A stretch of DNA of 30,635 bases from a virus. Location: positions 1 to 30,635 of IMG/VR virus record IMGVR_UViG_3300025695_000067. One strand, 5' to 3'. The notes beneath the pieces were generated by a model that did not search any database, was not told the DNA's origin, and saw only the letters and a list, made by a program, of their open reading frames with translations. The position numbers and the translations under genes are program-made. This document shows positions 2,639 to 30,635 of this stretch, piece by piece (the stretch's first letter is position 1; each line of letters opens with the position of its first letter).

Positions 2639-2808
2639 TTGCTTTTTAGTTTCTCAATATACAAAATAGCATCCATTAACTCCTCTTGTAAGTGGTTTAG
2701 GAAGTCATCAGCATTATTCTCTTCTAAGGTAGTGCCATACTTCTTAATCCCTACTTCGCTTCTTTGTTGGAACTTCTCTACTACTTGCTTTACTATTTTG
2801 TCTTCCAT
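2623..2808 (-). CDS. MazG-like NTP pyrophosphohydrolase-type small protein
   Basis: A 61-residue all-helical protein. The middle (RSEVGIKKYGTTLEENNADDF) and the following HLQEELMDAILYIEKL resemble short phage proteins of the all-alpha NTP pyrophosphohydrolase group, in which the ExxxD-type acidic residues of the second block bind Mg2+. If active it would hydrolyse nucleoside triphosphates and modify the pool during infection. It is much shorter than a complete MazG, so it may work as a multimer or be regulatory. It overlaps NinG by 16 nt. Confidence 0.55.
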   Translation of the reverse strand: MEDKIVKQVVEKFQQRSEVGIKKYGTTLEENNADDFLNHLQEELMDAILYIEKLKSKWTRS

Positions 2809-3326
2809 TCTTTTATCTTCTGTTTGTAAATATAGATAATTTCTTTGAGTTCTTCTACTGTGTACTTTGCCGTTCCTTGTGATAGGTTGTTTAAGGTTTC
2901 TAGTCTTTCCTTTCCTATTCTCTTCTCGAGTCCTTTCTGATAAGCTATAAGGTTTCCGTGCTTGTGTTGGTTACACGCTACGCATTGGCCGTGTACGTTA
3001 TCCTCGTTGAACGTTACCGCTTTATGCCCTCCGCTTGAATAGAAATGTCCAGCATCAAACTTGCCCTTTAGAACTGAGCCACACGATATACATTCCTTCC
3101 CTGAATCTCTTAACCGTATAAACTCGTTAAATACTTTCTGAGCCTCCTTAGTCCAATCCTGTACGGTCTTTAGTTCCTCCTTTAGTTTCGCCTTTCGTTG
3201 CCTCCATTGTTTCTCTTTCGCTACCCTTACCCACTCTTCTACGCACTCAGGTTTTAGGCAGTAGTGTTGTAGTGGTTTGTCAGGTCTAAAATACGATTTA
3301 CAATTTCGGCACTTTTTACGGTTCAT
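2793..3326 (-). CDS. ninG: NinG/Rap-type recombination nuclease
   Basis: A 177-residue protein with the layout of lambda NinG (Rap), a structure-specific nuclease of the recombination pathway. An N-terminal zinc-binding cluster (C6, C9, H21, C23, C28) is followed by a basic helical linker. The core then has CISCG (C79, C82), DAGHFYSSGGH (D91, H94) and HGQCVACNQHKHGN (H112, C115, C118), an HNH-like metal site. It would resolve branched DNA made by the ERF recombinase and the flap-type exonuclease encoded upstream. One copy of a 28-bp direct repeat lies directly before its ATG. Confidence 0.85.
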   Translation of the reverse strand: MNRKKCRNCKSYFRPDKPLQHYCLKPECVEEWVRVAKEKQWRQRKAKLKEELKTVQDWTKEAQKVFNEFIRLRDSGKECISCGSVLKGKFDAGHFYSSGGHKAVTFNEDNVHGQCVACNQHKHGNLIAYQKGLEKRIGKERLETLNNLSQGTAKYTVEELKEIIYIYKQKIKEWKTK

Positions 3327-3354
3327 TCTACTTGTTTAAATACTTTGGTTTAAT
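3327..3354 (-). repeat. 28-bp direct repeat, copy 1
   Basis: A stretch of 28 bases identical to 3589-3616. It begins 1 nt upstream of the NinG ATG and covers the end of the 83-residue gene. The two copies are read in different frames, so the identity is at DNA level. On the minus strand it contains TTAAACCAAAG, related to the AAACCAAAAC core of the array repeat at 4.2-5.0 kb. Confidence 0.9.
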
Positions 3355-3587
3355 AAATTGTAGTAAGACTTAGCCAATAACTCTTTATCCTCAGCGTCAT
3401 ATTGCAAGTAATCTTCTCCTTGTTCTAAACCAGCAATATAAGCCTCCTTAACAAGTTCCTCACTTTGTTGTTGGTCTTGGGTTAAGAGTTCATCTATCTT
3501 TTCAAATATCGCGCTGTCTTTTATCATTATCCTTCCTTCAAATGAAGAGTCCTGAAGATAGTTTTTTAATTCTTCTATTGCTGTCAT
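3336..3587 (-). CDS. Acidic hypothetical protein, 83 aa, in a repeat-flanked cassette
   Basis: Begins MTAIEELKNYLQDSSFEG. Rich in Glu, Asp, Gln and Tyr, no membrane segment. A 28-bp direct repeat lies directly before its start and again across its stop, so the gene and one repeat form a 262-bp unit. No function recognised. Confidence 0.7.
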   Translation of the reverse strand: MTAIEELKNYLQDSSFEGRIMIKDSAIFEKIDELLTQDQQQSEELVKEAYIAGLEQGEDYLQYDAEDKELLAKSYYNLLNQSI

Positions 3588-3588
3588 A

Positions 3589-3616
3589 TCTACTTGTTTA
3601 AATACTTTGGTTTAAT
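3589..3616 (-). repeat. 28-bp direct repeat, copy 2
   Basis: Identical to 3327-3354. Here it covers the last codons of the 62-residue gene (KPKYLNK, stop TAG) and ends 1 nt before the ATG of the 83-residue gene. Confidence 0.9.
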
Positions 3617-3778
3617 TACTTCGTTGTAGTGGTCTTCTGCATCTAAATGTAATGCTTTTTCATCTTCTTCTGATAGTGGTGTTTGTTCTTTATTCATATC
3701 AATGTATTCATATGCTTTGATTCTTTCCTTTTCTATTTCTTCTTTTGAGAGTAATTTAAATTCTTCTTCTTTACTCAT
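3590..3778 (-). CDS. Glu/Lys-rich small protein, 62 aa
   Basis: The start MSKEEEFKLLSKEEIEKERI and its leader (AACAAAAGATATGAGTAAAG) resemble the start regions of the repeat-linked small genes at 4.2-5.0 kb, with one insertion. The body is highly charged and helical. The final codons lie in the 28-bp direct repeat. Function unknown; probably another member of the small-gene array. Confidence 0.65.
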   Translation of the reverse strand: MSKEEEFKLLSKEEIEKERIKAYEYIDMNKEQTPLSEEDEKALHLDAEDHYNEVIKPKYLNK

Positions 3779-3786
3779 ATCTTTTG

Positions 3787-4155
3787 TTATTTAATTTTAT
3801 TTAGTAATTCTTGTATTTGTTTTTTTAGTGAAGGATTAACATCATCTAAATCTATATGCAGTAATACTCTATCCAACATATCAACACAAGCATTCAGTTT
3901 CTCAGATAGTTTAGTTTTTTCTATCTTCAAAACTTTAACAATATCATCATTGATTTGGTTATAATATGTTATATCTTCTGGTGGTAACTTAAAATCATTA
4001 TTTTTATCTACAATTAATTCATTATTCATTTTTTCTCGTAAAATGTTAATTATCTTAGTTAATTCTTTTTTATTATAAGGTTTCCATTTGTCAGTAAATG
4101 ATTTTCTATAATTTAAAATTCCATTAATGACTGTTTCTTCGTGATGTGTATTCAT
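3787..4155 (-). CDS. Hypothetical helical protein, 122 aa
   Basis: Begins MNTHHEETVINGILNYRKSF. Alternating Ile/Leu and Lys/Glu/Asp suggest helices; there is no signal peptide or cysteine cluster. It follows a vestigial array unit and is the longest gene in the very AT-rich tract 3.8-5.0 kb. No function recognised. Confidence 0.65.
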   Translation of the reverse strand: MNTHHEETVINGILNYRKSFTDKWKPYNKKELTKIINILREKMNNELIVDKNNDFKLPPEDITYYNQINDDIVKVLKIEKTKLSEKLNACVDMLDRVLLHIDLDDVNPSLKKQIQELLNKIK

Positions 4156-4162
4156 ATTATTT

Positions 4163-4201
4163 TTATTTTACATATTTATATGACTTTAATTTTTCAGTCA
4201 T
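4163..4201 (-). pseudogene. Vestigial 12-codon unit of the small-gene array
   Basis: The sixth copy of the array repeat supplies an ATG at 4201, followed by ACT GAA AAA as in neighbouring units, but the frame stops after 12 codons. It looks like a decayed array member, or an array end marking where genes are gained and lost. It might still be translated as a short peptide. Confidence 0.45.
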
Positions 4202-4379
4202 CTTTGTTTTGGTTTAATGGTTGTAGACCAACTGTACCAATACTCTTTTCTGTAACTTCAATCCCATAATCTCTCATACAAATAAAATATTCTACACCTT
4301 CATCTGTTTTTAGAACAATAGGATTATAAACTTCTTCTAATTCTATTAAGTAATCTTCTCTTATTGTTATTTTACTCAT
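4194..4379 (-). CDS. Array small protein, 61 aa, with homologue at right contig end
   Basis: I choose the ATG inside the array repeat (4379, MSKITIREDYLIEL) rather than an ATG six codons upstream, because all other array genes start there. The core VEYFICMRDYGIEVT is shared with the partial gene at the right end (VEFYICQRDYGIEVT), so this is a real family. It ends NQNKDD in the next repeat copy. Unknown function. Confidence 0.75.
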   Translation of the reverse strand: MSKITIREDYLIELEEVYNPIVLKTDEGVEYFICMRDYGIEVTEKSIGTVGLQPLNQNKDD

Positions 4380-4527
4380 CTTTGTTTTGGTTTTCAATAT
4401 TGGTCCTTAACTTATCCCATTCACTCAATAGTTTATATGGGTTATAATTCTTAGTTCTATTTTCTACTAACAACTTAGCGACACCTTCATATAATTGATG
4501 GTATTTCTTTTTATATTCTTCACTCAT
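4372..4527 (-). CDS. Array small protein, 51 aa
   Basis: The frame runs from the repeat ATG at 4527 (MSEEYKKKYHQLYEG) to TAA at 4372, overlapping the next gene's start. It ends IENQNKDE, the last five residues from the repeat. Lys/Tyr/Glu-rich and helical. Unknown function. Confidence 0.7.
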   Translation of the reverse strand: MSEEYKKKYHQLYEGVAKLLVENRTKNYNPYKLLSEWDKLRTNIENQNKDE

Positions 4528-4753
4528 CTTTGTTTTGGTTTATATAATTATGTAATCTCTCTAATAGCTCTTCTGATGGTTCAAAATAATGAAATCCACT
4601 AACCAAAGGATCATCATAATGTTTAAATTTAAGAACATTCAAAAAGTGTTTATAGTTATATTCTTCTAATGGGTGTTTGATTATTTCGGTTATTTTATAT
4701 ACATCATCACCGTCTTTAATGTTATATACTCTTTTCTCAAAAGTTATTTCCAT
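4520..4753 (-). CDS. Array small protein, 77 aa
   Basis: The frame starts in the repeat at 4753 (MEITFEKRVYNIKDGDDVYK) and ends NQNKDE in the following repeat. It is the only array member whose start does not continue as MSKE or similar. Mixed alpha/beta appearance with several Tyr, Phe and His. Unknown function. Confidence 0.7.
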   Translation of the reverse strand: MEITFEKRVYNIKDGDDVYKITEIIKHPLEEYNYKHFLNVLKFKHYDDPLVSGFHYFEPSEELLERLHNYINQNKDE

Positions 4754-4883
4754 CTTTGTTTTGGTTTAAAAGTATTGTGTTTTCTTCTAGAAATTTCTTC
4801 ATATATATTAACTTTCTTCTGATACTAACTTTGTCTGCCTTAAGTAAGCTTAATAAAAAATCATCTAATTCTTCTTTACTCAT
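4737..4883 (-). CDS. Array small protein, 48 aa
   Basis: The frame runs from ATG at 4883 (MSKEELDDFLLSLLKADKVS) to TGA at 4737. It reads through the next repeat as NQNKD and then adds GNNF, because the downstream gene continues with GGAAAT rather than AGTAAA. Helical and charged. Unknown function. Confidence 0.7.
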   Translation of the reverse strand: MSKEELDDFLLSLLKADKVSIRRKLIYMKKFLEENTILLNQNKDGNNF

Positions 4884-5013
4884 TTTTGTTTTGGTTTAAA
4901 ATATACTGTATAGTCTCTTTAATATATGTTATATCAACAAAAGAATCTTTAGATGTCTCATTTATTTCATCCAATATATCCTTAAGAGATTCTATTATAT
5001 CTTCTTTACTCAT
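4876..5013 (-). CDS. Array small protein, 45 aa
   Basis: The frame runs from the repeat ATG at 5013 (MSKEDIIESLKDILDEINET) to TAA at 4876, ending NQNKNE. Acidic and helical. The start is strongly similar to that of the 48-residue gene after it because the repeat extends past the ATG. Unknown function. Confidence 0.7.
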   Translation of the reverse strand: MSKEDIIESLKDILDEINETSKDSFVDITYIKETIQYILNQNKNE

Positions 5014-5077
5014 CTTTGTTTTGGTTTCTTCTAGTTGGACTATTATACATTCTTTTACTTTTATTATCTCTAGGCAT
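5006..5077 (-). CDS. Basic 23-residue leader-like peptide at head of array
   Basis: A short frame from ATG at 5077 to TAA at 5006, MPRDNKSKRMYNSPTRR followed by NQNKDE from the repeat. It opens the array, uses the same coupled stop/start arrangement as the other units and is strongly basic. It may be a leader peptide that starts the coupled translation of the array. It is too short for certainty. Confidence 0.4.
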   Translation of the reverse strand: MPRDNKSKRMYNSPTRRNQNKDE

Positions 5078-5099
5078 TTTTGTAGCTTTTGTTATTTAC

Positions 5100-5113
5100 G
5101 TCAGTATGCTGAC
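5100..5113 (-). other. Small inverted repeat upstream of the array
   Basis: GTCAG-CATA-CTGAC on the minus strand, a 5-bp perfect stem with a 4-nt loop, in the 41-nt gap between the 85-residue gene and the leader-like peptide. There is no T tract, so it is not a simple terminator. It could be an operator or an RNA processing site. Confidence 0.4.
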
Positions 5114-5118
5114 TTGGT

Positions 5119-5376
5119 TTACGTTAATTGTGTCATTATGCTATTTCTTAGCTTATGCTCCTTTATGAATGTTCTTCTTTGTCTTGCTCTTTGCCTAATA
5201 TACAACTTTTCGCAGAATGTTACAATGTTCTTTCCTTCTGCTTCTGTGAACTCGATAACTCTATCAATTAGGTAAAGTTTGTAACCTACTCCGGTCGGCT
5301 TCTCTAACATAGCAAAAGGAATACCCTCTGCTAATACTTCTGCCTGTATTTCGTTAATCTTATTTATCGTGACCAT
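5119..5376 (-). CDS. Hypothetical protein, 85 aa
   Basis: Begins MVTINKINEIQAEVLAEGIP. An alpha/beta first half is followed by a basic patch (YIRQRARQRRTF) that may bind nucleic acid. It overlaps the upstream 58-residue gene by 17 nt, in the replication gene cluster. No family recognised. Confidence 0.65.
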   Translation of the reverse strand: MVTINKINEIQAEVLAEGIPFAMLEKPTGVGYKLYLIDRVIEFTEAEGKNIVTFCEKLYIRQRARQRRTFIKEHKLRNSIMTQLT

Positions 5377-7125: not shown

Positions 7126-7228
7126 AAAAAAAGCTAGAGCCTTTCGGGGTAGTGGTTTCCCTACTCAGCTACTAGCCTTGTTAATTTCATTTAATACCTG
7201 CCACTACTCAGGTTGGTACGGGCGTACC
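7126..7228 (-). ncRNA. Structured leader RNA with competing helices (candidate attenuator)
   Basis: The 147-nt gap upstream of the replisome-organiser gene holds, in RNA order: hairpin GGTAC-GCCC-GTACC (near 7228-7215); hairpin CCTG-AGTAGTGG-CAGG (7212-7197); then GCTAG (7176-7172), GTAGGGAAACCACTAC (near 7164-7149), CCGAAAGG (7147-7140), CTAGC (7137-7133) and seven U. GCTAG/CTAGC close a terminator-like domain. CCACTAC (7155-7149) can pair locally with GTAGG, or over seven bases with GTAGTGG (7207-7201) in the loop of the second hairpin. The two rival strands are near copies (CTGAGTAG each). No known class recognised. Confidence 0.55.
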
Positions 7229-7269
7229 TATTACATAGACGTAAATTTAATCAAAAGGTTGCTTAATAT

Positions 7270-7683
7270 CTAAACAAATTGCTTTCTATTTTCAACCAAT
7301 CTGTTAAAAGCGTCCGAGTATCTTTCGCTCTCTTTCTTTATTTCTTTAAGGTAGTCGTAATCTGATTTATAGATCGTAACTCTTTTATAGTTCCTGTCAT
7401 CTAGTTTAAGACTGTTTTCGTTGAAGTATAACATCTCATCTAGTGGATTTACCAAAAGTAGAAAGTAGTCATCTTCTTTATACATATCGAAAACCTTAAT
7501 GTAATGAAAACAAGTAGCGTGATTCTTGTCTAGCATATCTCCTATCTTTTGAAATGCTATTCCGTAGCTTCTCAGGTACTTAGTAAGGAACGCTCTTTTA
7601 TAGACTAGTTCTCGCTTTCTACTTTTACTTCTTAAGTCGTACTCTTCTATTATCTGTAATGCTTTTTCTATCTCGTTATTCAT
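7270..7683 (-). CDS. DnaA domain-IV-like DNA-binding protein
   Basis: A 137-residue protein. Residues about 21-66 (RKRELVYKRAFLTKYLR, then FQKIGDMLDKNHATCFHYIK) fit the pattern of DnaA domain IV, in which a basic helix is followed by a helix-turn-helix containing IG and an (R/N)HAT-like signature that reads the DnaA box. The AAA+ ATPase domains are absent. The C-terminal half (KSDYDYLKEIKKESERYSDAF) is helical. In DnaA the signature is DHTTV or DHATV; here it is NHATC, a relaxed match. It could mark the phage origin or compete with host DnaA. It is immediately upstream of the leader RNA and replisome organiser. Confidence 0.6.
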   Translation of the reverse strand: MNNEIEKALQIIEEYDLRSKSRKRELVYKRAFLTKYLRSYGIAFQKIGDMLDKNHATCFHYIKVFDMYKEDDYFLLLVNPLDEMLYFNENSLKLDDRNYKRVTIYKSDYDYLKEIKKESERYSDAFNRLVENRKQFV

Positions 7684-7697
7684 AGCGTTTTAAATTA

Positions 7698-7718
7698 GGG
7701 GAGAGTTAACCCCTCCCC
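7698..7718 (-). other. GC-rich hairpin in leader of the DnaA-like gene
   Basis: GGGGAG-GGGTTAACT-CTCCCC on the minus strand, a 6-bp perfect stem in the 42-nt gap between the SSB-like gene and the DnaA-like gene. It is followed by TAATTTAAAACG rather than a U tract, so termination is doubtful. It may stabilise the upstream message or limit ribosome access to the next start. Confidence 0.5.
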
Positions 7719-7725
7719 GTAGTTA

Positions 7726-7992
7726 CTAAAATGGTAGTCCGTCCCCGTCATCTTCTTTAGAGATTCCCTCGATTGATTGAGCGTCAGGCTTCCAAGTGTC
7801 GACCGTAATAGATACGTCTTTGCCGTACTGGTCTGCTTGATCTTTTACGTTGATATTAACCTTTACGTAAGTCTTCCCGTTATACTCGAAAGTATGCTCT
7901 TTAGGAATGTCTGATAAGCATAGGCTACTCTTTAGCCAGTTATCCTTTTGCTTTTTACCGTTACCGATGTAGATTGTTTTTTGCTCTGTCAT
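7726..7992 (-). CDS. Single-stranded DNA-binding-like protein
   Basis: An 88-residue protein with a beta-rich middle (HTFEYNGKTYVKVNINVKDQ and YGKDVSITVDTW) compatible with a small OB fold, and an acidic C-terminus DDGDGLPF. That tip matches the SSB C-terminal motif (acidic residues then I/L-P-F) through which SSB recruits replication proteins. It sits between the flap-type exonuclease and the DnaA-like gene and overlaps the former by 4 nt. It would coat single strands during replication and recombination. The OB fold is inferred, not shown. Confidence 0.55.
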   Translation of the reverse strand: MTEQKTIYIGNGKKQKDNWLKSSLCLSDIPKEHTFEYNGKTYVKVNINVKDQADQYGKDVSITVDTWKPDAQSIEGISKEDDGDGLPF

Positions 7993-8804
7993 AGCTTCAT
8001 TAATTTGATATTATTTCTGAGTCTTTTACTATCTCCATACACTTCAACTACGGCTCTCAGTTTTCCGAAGTTGTTGCGTTCCTTTAATAACTTTTTAGCT
8101 TTTACTTTTCCAATACCTTTTACTCCTTTTATGTTGTCGCTCGTATCGCCTATTAAGAGCATCTCTAAGAGCATTTCGCGACCCTCTTGGGGTGTAGTAT
8201 AAGAAAAGCCACGAAAGTCCGTTAGAACGTTTCCCTGTTCGTCTTCGCCTATCTTCTTTTTGTAGTAGTCGAAATGACAAGTGGGTATTTGCTTTAGGTC
8301 TTTGTCAATACTCGCAACTATTGGGTAGTGTTGTTCTATCACTTCTACGGCTTCTGCTATTAAATCGTCAGCTTCTAGAGTGTCGGAGTATTTAACATTC
8401 TCCCCTTCTGATTCCAGTACACTAATTACATACCATTTAAAGTGTTTAACTATTTCAGTTAACGGAGTCTTCTCACGGTTTGCTTTGTACGTTGGGTCTA
8501 TCTCATAACGAAAGTTATTAGAGCAAGTCGAAAAGAAGTGAATAGTATAATCAATTACAAAGTTATCCTCTTCTATGGTATTAACTATCTCTCTAACTTG
8601 TGTATGGTAGTCTTCATACATAACCTCGAAGTCTTGTTCTTCTTGGTGGTAGTGCGCTACTTTAAATAGTATGCTATCCGCATCTAATAAAAGGCACTTG
8701 TTACGTTCTGAAAGGAAACCTTCTAGGAGGTCACGTCTTACCGCATCCTCCTTAGAAAGTTTAATGTAGCCTTTCAAGTAATTTAATTCCTCTTGTAACT
8801 TCAT
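7989..8804 (-). CDS. 5'-3' exonuclease / flap endonuclease (FEN family)
   Basis: A 271-residue protein of the PIN-like FEN family (T7 gp6, T4 RNase H, Pol I N-domain). Metal-binding acids appear in order: LLLDAD (D41, D43), LEADDL (E144, D146, D147), SIDKDL (D167, D169) and GDTSDN (D220, D223). A helix-hairpin-helix-type block follows (GVKGIGKVKAKKLL, 227-240). It removes RNA primers and 5' flaps or resects ends for recombination. It is coupled to the ERF recombinase by a 1-nt overlap, giving the exonuclease plus annealing-protein pair common in phages. Confidence 0.85.
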   Translation of the reverse strand: MKLQEELNYLKGYIKLSKEDAVRRDLLEGFLSERNKCLLLDADSILFKVAHYHQEEQDFEVMYEDYHTQVREIVNTIEEDNFVIDYTIHFFSTCSNNFRYEIDPTYKANREKTPLTEIVKHFKWYVISVLESEGENVKYSDTLEADDLIAEAVEVIEQHYPIVASIDKDLKQIPTCHFDYYKKKIGEDEQGNVLTDFRGFSYTTPQEGREMLLEMLLIGDTSDNIKGVKGIGKVKAKKLLKERNNFGKLRAVVEVYGDSKRLRNNIKLMKL

Positions 8805-9343
8805 TACGCTAGTTGTTTAAGTTGATCAGGAGTCAAAGTAAAGTTACTCTTTAAAGACTCCGCATCGTAGTTACCTTCTTTAATTGCGTTAAGCGACTTT
8901 TGGAAACGCTCATCTGTTAAGGTAGGCTTTCCTTTTGGTTTAGGTTGCCCTTGTGCATCTGTATCCTTATCGGTAACAATACCCAAAGCACTAGACAAAG
9001 TATAACGTCTAAAGTAGGTCAAGGCACTACCGTATGACTGATAAATGTTCATACCTCGTAACTCTTGAACTGGTATGTCTGCACGTGATGCTCTCCACTC
9101 TCCACTCTCTACGTGAAAGATAGTAGTAACTAAAGCACCTCCGTCTAGTTCCTGCGTGAATCCTAAACCGTGCTTTTTAAGTAGTGGATTGATCACTTCA
9201 AAGATAGTCGGCAAGTCTGCATAGGAGTAGTTATGTCCTTTCGTGCCTTTGTGAATTACTGGGCATTCTTGCTGAAAGTCTGCCAACGCTTTAAATAGTG
9301 TTTTGCTTTGTGGGATTACGTCCACGATTTCTGCATTTTTCAT
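8804..9343 (-). CDS. erf: ERF-family single-strand annealing recombinase
   Basis: A 179-residue protein. Its core (KHGLGFTQELDGGALVTTIF, then YQSYGSALTYFRRYTLSSAL and GIVTDKDTDA, residues 58-130) is the diagnostic ERF pattern. A short basic Pro/Lys linker (GQPKPKGKPT) leads to a small helical C-terminal part. ERF proteins anneal complementary single strands and help circularise terminally redundant genomes, which fits the circular permutation suggested by this contig. The partner exonuclease follows directly. Confidence 0.85.
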   Translation of the reverse strand: MKNAEIVDVIPQSKTLFKALADFQQECPVIHKGTKGHNYSYADLPTIFEVINPLLKKHGLGFTQELDGGALVTTIFHVESGEWRASRADIPVQELRGMNIYQSYGSALTYFRRYTLSSALGIVTDKDTDAQGQPKPKGKPTLTDERFQKSLNAIKEGNYDAESLKSNFTLTPDQLKQLA

Positions 9344-28453: not shown

Positions 28454-29656
28454 TTACTTAATAAAGTATTCTCCTCTAGTTGGGTTATCTAGTTGGTAGC
28501 TTACGGCATACCTAATAGCGTCTATCGCGTGGTTAAAGTCATCTACTGGAGTACTACTCTTTCTTTCTAACCAACAATAGTTATTTAGTTCCTTTATTAG
28601 TTCGGTACTATCGGGGTGTATAACTAAATCGTAATCTTGCATTATGCTTATACCATAGGTTACCGAACCTTGCCCCTTTATAGTTGGTAAGATGTTATTA
28701 CCCTTTGCTTTTAGTTCGCTTATTAAACGTGGCTCTGCTGAGTCGGCAATGATTAAACCATCTTTCGCTATACGTGTGTTTAGTTCGGATATTTGCGTAG
28801 TAGTTAGGTTTGGCTTATAGTAATGTAACTTAAGGTATATCTTTTTACTAGCCTTATCTATGTTCGTTTCTACTAAGGTTGTAGGATCAACACTAAAACC
28901 GAAATCTTGCCCGAAGACCGATTTACCTACGTGCTTAAACTCGCCTATACTCCAATTCTCGAATATAACGCCCTCCGCTTTATCTAGCCAACCTCCGAGT
29001 ATTTGGTGCTTATACTTCTTTGGTCTACGCTTCCTAATATCATCTATTTGATTTAGGTAACTCTCTGAGAGGTTGTTTATATTGTCTAAGTAGGTAGTAT
29101 GTATGTATGTAGTATCTCCTCTAGTTTCATTAACTCCCTCGTTTACTCCCTTTGCTTCAAAGAAACGTTGGTAAATAAAATGCTCTTTCGTAGTCGGGTT
29201 AAGTATAAGTATTACCCTATTCTGTAAACCTTTTTGCCTTACCGATAAATCAATAGTATCAAATATAGTCTCGTCTACTAGTTCCTCAGCTTCATCTAGT
29301 ACCCACGTTGTAACGCCTTGTAACGATTTAAGGTTGGCTACCTGATTACCCGAACTAGTTTTAATACCTCGAAAGAGTATTTTACTTCCCGTTCGTTTAT
29401 TTATTACTTCATCTTTAGTAATATTGAAATCGTTTCCTCTATCAAGAAGTTCAATCTTCTCAATGAACTCAGGAATGATTGAGATCGACGCTGACCGTAG
29501 CGTGTACCGAGTAAACAATATAGTATGACCGCTTTCGTAAGTAAGTAACAAAAGTAAGGTGTTAATAGCAAAAGACTTCCCAGAGCCTCTACCGCCCGTA
29601 ACAATGTAATAACGACTTTCATCTTGTAATGTTAAATATTTATCATTTATCTCCAC
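28454..29656 (-). CDS. terL: Terminase large subunit
   Basis: A 400-residue protein with ATPase and nuclease domains. Walker A is at 21-29 (GGRGSGKSF), Walker B at 117-122 with catalytic Glu (TWVLDEAE), and the coupling motif is ILNPTTKEH (151-159). The RNase H-like nuclease shows FGQDFGFSVDP (D251), IIADSAEP, and DDFNHAIDAIRYAV near the C-terminus. It drives DNA into the prohead and cuts the concatemer. The start is GTG at 29656 because no in-frame ATG lies between it and an upstream stop. It overlaps the small terminase-like gene by 14 nt. Confidence 0.95.
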   Translation of the reverse strand: MEINDKYLTLQDESRYYIVTGGRGSGKSFAINTLLLLLTYESGHTILFTRYTLRSASISIIPEFIEKIELLDRGNDFNITKDEVINKRTGSKILFRGIKTSSGNQVANLKSLQGVTTWVLDEAEELVDETIFDTIDLSVRQKGLQNRVILILNPTTKEHFIYQRFFEAKGVNEGVNETRGDTTYIHTTYLDNINNLSESYLNQIDDIRKRRPKKYKHQILGGWLDKAEGVIFENWSIGEFKHVGKSVFGQDFGFSVDPTTLVETNIDKASKKIYLKLHYYKPNLTTTQISELNTRIAKDGLIIADSAEPRLISELKAKGNNILPTIKGQGSVTYGISIMQDYDLVIHPDSTELIKELNNYCWLERKSSTPVDDFNHAIDAIRYAVSYQLDNPTRGEYFIK

Positions 29657-29936
29657 GAATAGAGTTAATTAGTTCCTTGAAATTTATACCGCCTTCTACT
29701 TGTGCGTTTAAATCTAAACTTTCTTTTGGTTTTCCTAGCGTGTACTCTAGTACCATCTGCATAGCCTTTAAACGGTCTTTATCTTCGCTTAGAGCGACTT
29801 TTACCGCTTGGCTAAGTAAAGCCTTCACATCATCATAAGAAACCGCCTCAGAGATAGCCTTTCTATATTCGTTCTTTCTCTTGTCTATTCCTTTTGCTTT
29901 GGTGCTATGCCCTCCGTTTTCTTTTCTCTTATCCAT
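29643..29936 (-). CDS. Small terminase-like DNA-packaging protein (right copy)
   Basis: The same 97-residue protein as at 20-313, identical in sequence, with four synonymous differences (codons for V, L, A and K near residues 57-63). This copy lies in front of the complete terminase large subunit gene. Confidence 0.6.
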   Translation of the reverse strand: MDKRKENGGHSTKAKGIDKRKNEYRKAISEAVSYDDVKALLSQAVKVALSEDKDRLKAMQMVLEYTLGKPKESLDLNAQVEGGINFKELINSIRGDK

Positions 29937-29948
29937 AATTAATAGAAA

Positions 29949-30326
29949 TTAACTTTTAATTATTTTAGCCTCGTTTATGTTTAGTAGGGTTACTATCTTT
30001 TCTACTTTTCTATTGTCTTTAAATTCAGTAGTTTTTTTGTATTTCCCTTTAACCCATTTTGGTTTTAAGTTGTTTATGTTAAATGAGTATATTCCTTGTG
30101 GAGTTTGGTTAATGTAGTATATTTTTGCTTTATCCTTATGCACTATTAACTTATCGTATTTGTGTTTCTCCATTATTAAGTTATCATAGTGTATAGGTCT
30201 GCATTTTAATTCTATTATTGCTTTGTGCTTTTTAGAGTAGCAATCGTAGCCACAATATTTACCTGTTGACCTTTCTAAGTCAGGTACGATATTTTTAAGT
30301 ATACGATATAACTTATACTCATTCAC
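29949..30326 (-). CDS. PD-(D/E)XK nuclease-like protein (right copy)
   Basis: The same 125-residue protein as at 326-703. Two base differences change AAC ATT to AAT ATC and leave the protein unchanged. Described under the left copy. Confidence 0.5.
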   Translation of the reverse strand: MNEYKLYRILKNIVPDLERSTGKYCGYDCYSKKHKAIIELKCRPIHYDNLIMEKHKYDKLIVHKDKAKIYYINQTPQGIYSFNINNLKPKWVKGKYKKTTEFKDNRKVEKIVTLLNINEAKIIKS

Positions 30327-30519
30327 TATCTATCTGCTTTAGTTTTCTTTGTGCCCACTCTATACCTTCGTCTCCTCCCCAAGCTAACCACATTAAACGA
30401 CCACATCCATCTCCTAGTTCTTTATTTGAGTTTTGTCTATGTCTTTCAAATGCTGCCATTCTCGCTATGGTATCTCTTGAAATGTTTTCTCTATTTGCTA
30501 ATTGGCTGGCTCTTTGTTT
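30319..30519 (-). pseudogene. Truncated copy of the 146-aa phage gene
   Basis: The frame matches the last 66 codons, counting the stop, of the gene at 696-1136. Upstream it reads KQRASQLANRENISRD against KQRANQLAKGEAISRD, then meets a TAA at 30522-30520. The N-terminal half is missing. An internal ATG at 30459 (MAAFERHRQ) could still give a 46-residue product. The part nearest the breakpoint has amino-acid changes, unlike the rest of the repeat. Confidence 0.75.
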
Positions 30520-30635
30520 TTAAAGGTTTGTTCGTCTATATACTTTGTTACTCCATTACAAGTAACTTCAATACCATAATCTCTTTGACAGATGTAGAAC
30601 TCAACACCATCTACTGTTTTAATTACAATCTCATT
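30498..30635 (-). CDS. Partial homologue of the 61-aa array protein at contig edge
   Basis: A frame open from the window edge to TAG at 30498 encodes 45 residues, including VKTV- and VEFYICQRDYGIEVT-like segments that match VEYFICMRDYGIEVT of the array gene at 4194-4379. The homology ends after GIEVT; the tail (YIDEQTFKNKEPAN) runs into the truncated 146-residue gene. The start is beyond the window. It is a diverged relative, not a copy, of the left array gene. Confidence 0.7.
   Translation of the reverse strand, partial: NEIVIKTVDGVEFYICQRDYGIEVTCNGVTKYIDEQTFKNKEPAN

Follow-up and report, generated by a model that had tools for sequence, protein, structure and literature searches.

A repeated junction that probably serves as start, all-frame stop and crossover site of small-gene cassettes in phages

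In T4-type phages, the PeSL elements attributed to Arbiol et al. in 2010 and Comeau et al. in 2014 are reportedly intergenic and combine an early promoter with a stem-loop. The boundary sequences of lambdoid phages vary from boundary to boundary within one phage group. These boundary or linker sequences are short and conserved, lie at gene boundaries and have been proposed to target homologous recombination, as cited in PMC3029335, and the PeSL promoter-terminator cassettes recur as short elements between small phage genes, where they mediate the shuffling of genes (PMC4503421). PeSLs and lambdoid boundary sequences are the closest published mechanisms of exchange to the system described here, and its closest published pattern is that of SAS and ESAS in cluster K mycobacteriophages, which Pope et al. 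(2011, PMC3203893) describe as short, highly conserved and asymmetric repeats, essentially on one strand, that mark where non-structural genes of unrelated families begin. SAS is a 13-bp sequence, GGGATAGGAGCCC, which contains an SD core, is found in one phage cluster, lies 3-7 bp upstream of the start and has been proposed as an initiation or binding signal. SAS copies sometimes hold the stop of the upstream gene and are nearly missing from host genomes, and their function is unproven (PMC3203893).

The junction studied here occurs as a repeat in the window, which is the whole stretch of 30,635 nucleotides of viral DNA that was analysed (IMG/VR record IMGVR_UViG_3300025695_000067). Its consensus, TTAAACCAAAACAAAGATGAGTAA, has no SD and includes the ATG inside the repeat, and the aligned unit extends to TTAAACCAAAACAAAGATGAGTAAA, about 20-25 nt. 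From sequence comparison, and with a probability of about 0.77, it is read as the start, the all-frame stop and the crossover site of a small-gene cassette system shared among phages of SD-less hosts, probably Flavobacteriia. As with SAS, the copies keep one orientation and stand at the starts of many unrelated families, 336 protein families being found at junctions. Unlike SAS, the junction is SD-less, has another consensus, includes the ATG, has a stop in each of the three frames, joins one gene straight to the next, occurs in many lineages and falls at the breakpoints of exchange. It resembles the PeSL elements in being a recurrent short element between small phage genes that is tied to shuffling, and differs from them in being a translation stop and start with little predicted structure, no intergenic space and no stem-loop in the three copies folded. 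The lambdoid boundary sequences, as they are cited, share with it the exchange of modules with breakpoints at short shared sequences at gene boundaries; the junction differs from them in that a single sequence serves dozens of boundaries and recurs in unrelated phages.

Integron attC arrays are also similar, since in both cases mostly uncharacterised, promoterless small genes move as units between repeated sites. The junction arrays differ from integrons in that no integrase was found (0/20 records, which are fragmentary), that there is no attC-like hairpin and that the junction is the start codon of the next gene. No description of such a gene-exchange arrangement, nor any paper with AACCAAAACAAAG, was found in the open-access literature, and no system known to us unites the roles of start, all-frame stop and crossover in a single sequence that recurs in many lineages. 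The preliminary description of this DNA knew of no described system of this form; the arrangement belongs to repeat-directed modular exchange in phages, which is already known.

In the window, six copies of the 16-base repeat AACCAAAACAAA(G/A)ATG are located on the minus strand between 4199 and 5026, five of them perfect and one with a single mismatch, with start-to-start spacings of 178, 148, 226, 130 and 130. When up to three mismatches are allowed, the window has 9 matches, against a mean of 0.86 in shuffled sequences, and 0 of 100 shuffles reached 9. The GC content of the array tract is 0.23-0.28, compared with 0.33-0.41 in the surroundings. The number, strand, single mismatch and 130-226 spacing of the copies, as well as the AT-rich character of the tract, had been recognised before and were borne out by these coordinates and controls. 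The 16-base repeat is confined to these six places within the 30.6 kb record, so it is not a general start signal of the window phage.

The upstream edge of the array is a 23-codon ORF (5006..5077, minus strand, as are all features of the array), whose own start has no junction and which ends in junction copy 1 (MPRDNKSKRMYNSPTRRNQNKDE). Copy 1 (AACCAAAACAAAGATG, 5011..5026) closes this ORF and opens cassette gene 1, of 45 codons (4876..5013). It is followed by copy 2 (AACCAAAACAAAAATG, the one with the mismatch, 4881..4896) and cassette gene 2, of 48 codons (4737..4883), by copy 3 (4751..4766) and cassette gene 3, of 77 codons (4520..4753), by copy 4 (4525..4540) and cassette gene 4, of 51 codons (4372..4527), and by copy 5 (4377..4392) and cassette gene 5, of 61 codons (4194..4379). 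Outside the window, cassette genes 3 and 5 were seen only in L002, a contig of the same phage. The ATG of copy 6 (4199..4214) opens a 12-codon stump, MTEKLKSYKYVK, at 4163-4201. All six ORFs, including the one of 23 codons, have at their C-terminal ends NQNKD or NQNKN, followed by a few more residues, in a single relative frame. Each repeat had been thought to supply the ATG of one gene and the NQNKD or NQNKN end of the gene before it; the endings are present in all six cases, and the ATG opens a gene of at least 45 codons at five of the six copies, the last one leading to the stump.

The array makes part of a variable block of about 1.8 kb (3330..5137, minus strand), which also includes three further small genes. 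In the segments that align around this region, the nearest relative, L001, has about 80-93% identity to the window. Its gene matching 5119-5376 runs straight to ninG, so that L001, rather than keeping the gene order with a degraded repeat, is without the whole block, which makes the array accessory DNA. Neither outer edge of the block is a junction. Beside the corresponding site, L001 has a DNA methyltransferase-like gene (~7149-8307), which suggests that this site may be a hotspot. NinG lies directly downstream of the block (2793..3326, minus strand; PF05766, E 3.3e-46), and the same strand encodes a 5'-3' exonuclease (7989..8804; PF02739, E 9.7e-14) and an ERF-family single-strand annealing protein (8804..9343; PF04404, E 5.8e-27), a candidate agent of short-homology recombination. 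A sigma-70-like protein of 170 codons (1900-2412; PF04542, PF08281) may direct transcription of phage genes.

The closest relatives of the large terminase among isolates are those of Nonlabens phages, with 56% identity, so the host of the window phage is probably a member of Flavobacteriia. No T4-type capsid gene was found in the window. The two ends of the record, 1-897 and 29624-30520, match at 97.8% (20 mismatches). The record thus probably represents a nearly complete genome of about 29.6 kb whose terminal or circular overlap was assembled from variant strains, even though an exact end repeat is missing. The window has in addition a 33-bp direct repeat (97%), ATTAAACCAAAGTATTTAAACAAGTAGA(T)ATGA, at 3323-3354 and 3584-3616 on the minus strand, which flanks an 83-codon gene (3336-3587). 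In either copy, the stop of one gene and the start of the following one both fall inside the repeat, in two different frames, and the copy opens with ATTAAACCAAA, as does the array junction. The insertion of one gene seems to have left this repeat as a second, local seam; L159 has a relative of the 83-codon gene with a similar seam. This 33-bp seam was tested as another widespread junction sequence and proved local.

The array junction itself is widespread. At least 120 stretches with the 16-mer are present in IMG/VR, many of them with 3-7 exact copies; loci were mostly gathered by the junction motif itself, and counts from motif scans of IMG/VR are lower bounds. In the loci fetched from IMG/VR, 638 junctions were scored by PWM, against 2 in reversed sequence. 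Consecutive junctions less than 1.5 kb apart hold exactly one ORF in 313 of 418 pairs, with a median spacing of 193 nt and a median ORF of 61 codons in the fetched loci. Arrays on a single strand reach 30 copies and occur in otherwise unrelated phages, including T4-type phages, the T4-type capsid gene being found in 7 of 20 array-bearing records. In whole records the copies are essentially limited to one strand and clustered, a pattern almost nil in the reversed control: a 242 kb record has 24 copies, nearly all inside 5.5 kb, and a 380 kb record has 21 copies in two clusters. The 80 loci with at least three junctions fall into 44 groups of DNA similarity, a rough grouping since many of the records are fragmentary, and the number of independent lineages is thus an approximation. 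Among L166, L182, L072, L060 and L143, some arrays have two adjacent or nearby cassettes of one family, and some junctions carry a 3-nt insertion before the ATG (AACCAAAACAAAGAAGATG).

A search of 84,980 bacterial and archaeal species genomes gave no match to the junction 23-mer and four scattered single matches to the 20-mer, so the junction is not a chromosomal feature. Among isolate phages, no match was obtained by megablast of the first 12 kb of the window or by distant blastn of the variable block or of the L143 array, tblastn of 17 cassette families found none in 50,697 isolate phage records, and the 37-nt consensus gave weak scattered matches only. Few of 140 proteins from cassette loci have Pfam names, which are those of thymidylate synthases, a C5 methyltransferase, PD-(D/E)XK nucleases and parts of DnaB and DnaA. 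In L142, L090 and other loci, a small number of longer cassettes encode thymidylate synthases, a cytosine methyltransferase and PD-(D/E)XK nucleases; the junction is thus not limited to tiny genes without a named family. The position between replication and recombination genes, together with the turnover of the cassettes, makes accessory roles in host interaction a natural guess, and the cassettes may provide exchangeable functions in host takeover or counter-defence.

As a start, the junction precedes real coding genes. Its ATG opens an ORF of at least 30 codons in 86% of cases, compared with 31% for random ATGs, and the pooled data of 25 cassette families (pN 0.068, pS 0.312, dN/dS 0.18, with an excess of third-position changes) indicate that the cassette frames are under purifying selection as protein. 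The earlier proposal that the repeat is a translation start agrees with these figures, and each ATG would be used for initiation in vivo. The repeat has A at -3, -6, -12 and -13, the four upstream positions at which this base favours initiation in Flavobacterium johnsoniae, whose mRNAs have no SD sequences (PMC6847099). It also fits the general start of Bacteroidota genes, an A-rich SD-less leader; the full 16-mer is not found at other genes. Other long ORFs of the same contigs are without the motif and the window record has six sites only, which argues against a general start signal placed at most genes.

As a stop, the junction receives upstream genes in all three frames, with 152, 91 and 82 genes at 325 junctions, which mostly stop at +8, -12 or +4 relative to the A of the ATG. 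The three stops are a TAA just before the core, a TGA within ATGA and a TAA at +6 to +8, and the upstream genes end, according to frame, in NQNKDE*, at the TAA just before the core or in KPKQR*. Regardless of the frame used, the pre-core TAA is retained in 74-87% of junctions, ATGA in 87-96% and the stop at +6 to +8 in 60-69%, and control starts have the same three at 13%, 55% (A at +4) and 16%. Each stop has about the same frequency regardless of which one the upstream gene uses, and the junction therefore closes a gene arriving in any frame and opens a single frame downstream. The constant relative frame noted in the window therefore holds inside the window and not in other phages, which use three upstream frames. 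The NQNKD tail is best read as a by-product of the all-frame stop, and the tail in the window would be its frame-0 case. Upstream genes arrive in frame 0, the one that adds the NQNKDE tail, in 47% of cases (152/325) instead of one third, and this over-representation leaves room for a weak preference for the tail.

Comparison of loci shows that cassettes move. The only DNA that the window shares with L083, L110 and L181 is a segment of 159-162 bp that runs from junction to junction, comprises cassette 1 with both of its junctions (4869..5027, minus strand) and is 95%, 95% and 91% identical, respectively. Cassette 1 is mobile and occurs in four independent contexts, the window, L083/L110, L181 and L034/L068/L137, whose alignment ends at the junctions on both sides; this number refers to the strict 45-codon family, the looser single-linkage group of 12 loci being formed by two subfamilies. 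Over all homologous cassette pairs, both flanks are unrelated in 161 of 249. In the matched comparison, which uses non-overlapping ORFs of 40-110 codons, both flanks are unrelated in 101 of 165 pairs of junction-started genes (61%) and in 8 of 191 pairs of same-size genes without junctions on the same contigs (4%); in a cruder control with larger ORFs the count was 53 of 512. Because pairs from one family depend on each other, position-wise identity was computed with one pair per family for 30 families. It falls to background at about -15 on the left and about +4 to +12 on the right, which are the edges of the junction.

Gains and losses have the same limits. L125 and L200 differ by exactly one 334-nt cassette, and their alignments overlap by the 20 nt of a single junction; L057 and L151 have two differences of one cassette each, with overlaps of 18 and 20 nt. 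Four cassettes common to L146 (a 156 kb contig) and L071 (a 380 kb contig) are in scrambled order. For families fetched by protein and not by motif, genes are junction-started in 7 of 7 cases (strict 45-codon family), in 4 of 8 close relatives of a second family and in 3 of 4 cases of a third, and the linkage to the junction is thus strong, not absolute. The search of related phages and metagenomes proposed in the preliminary description found the repeat widespread and the cassettes shuffled between loci. The pattern of flanks, breakpoints and order supports its view that unrelated short genes would be exchanged as units bounded by the junction.

The adenines at all known upstream determinants of Flavobacterium initiation, the location of the repeat exactly at starts and the occurrence of some homologues without the junction would also be expected if it were a strong initiation signal only, selected repeatedly in SD-less phages, with mobility due to ordinary mosaicism in which small early genes are the most mobile. 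This explanation is unlikely, being weakened by the low frequency of unrelated flanks in the matched control, by breakpoints at the junction edges, by clean gains and losses that retain exactly one junction of 18-20 nt and by the other long ORFs without the motif on the same contigs, as well as by the conserved cytosines at -11, -10 and -5 and the stops in all frames, for which initiation has no known need. The junction could instead be a regulatory site for an RNA- or DNA-binding factor of phage or host that co-ordinates early small genes, with exchange as a side effect, and its fixed position, single strand and clustering, a pattern as that of SAS in cluster K, agree with such a site. No such factor is known and the three-frame stops, kept irrespective of use, are left unexplained, which makes it improbable that regulation accounts for the junction. 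A regulatory role is nevertheless compatible with the cassette reading as an added function.

Exact units, scrambled order, some neighbours of the same family and many singletons, as in integron arrays, would also fit a dedicated site-specific recombinase that recognises the junction, in a phage counterpart of integron cassettes. For the families tested, the 20 other array-bearing records share no recombinase. They yielded no tyrosine integrase (0 of 20, control 14 of 14; the records are fragmentary), neither ERF nor RecT, and weak RecA-like matches, and a serine resolvase turned up in 1 of 21 records. The junction is asymmetric and without inverted repeat, and RNA folding of three window junctions gave an unpaired or weakly paired core with no common structure, so that such a recombinase is quite improbable. 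Folding of these three copies also led to the rejection of a conserved RNA structure at the junction. The preliminary description proposed that the repeat adds a common C-terminal tag, and all six ORFs of the window carry it. That this peptide (NQNKD/E) has a function of its own is very improbable even with frame 0 over-represented (152/325); as a general rule the tag is contradicted by more than half of the upstream genes elsewhere, which end in the other two frames without the tail.

Under the preferred reading, the junction would first provide the translation start of the downstream gene and would then close the upstream gene in whatever frame it arrives. Being identical everywhere, it would be the sole homology between unrelated arrays and hence the site of crossover. 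Neighbouring cassettes share only the junction, so recombination there would insert, delete or replace a whole cassette and leave its neighbours with a valid stop and start. The agent would be ordinary short-homology recombination or annealing during phage replication, with no dedicated site-specific recombinase, and such recombination is the most likely route of exchange given that no tyrosine integrase was found in 20 array-bearing records. The junction and the shared first codons often give 25-40 nt of near identity; the minimal pairing segment is 23-27 bp for Red beta and 31-34 bp for RecA, and phage recombinases of the Rad52-like type use short homologies and promote mosaic exchange (PMC3945230). 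As the other records have no detectable ERF, RecT or integrase, the pathway may differ among phages. A wider and more tentative proposal is that unrelated SD-less phages exchange tiny genes in an open economy by means of one connector that might be selected for exchangeability itself, possibly with a specific protein that recognises it, in an arrangement that would be integron-like without an integrase.

How small uncharacterised accessory genes are gained and lost by phages is a long-standing question. Boundary-directed recombination has been proposed, yet conserved boundary sequences have seldom been seen (PMC3029335). One connector at hundreds of gene boundaries in many phage lineages, with visible breakpoints, would make boundary-directed recombination testable. 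The junction may also serve as a tag to find and correctly annotate tiny phage genes that gene callers may miss, and as a route to pools of candidate genes for host takeover or counter-defence. Its frame-independent stop and start would be a natural version of a standard part that joins genes in any order.
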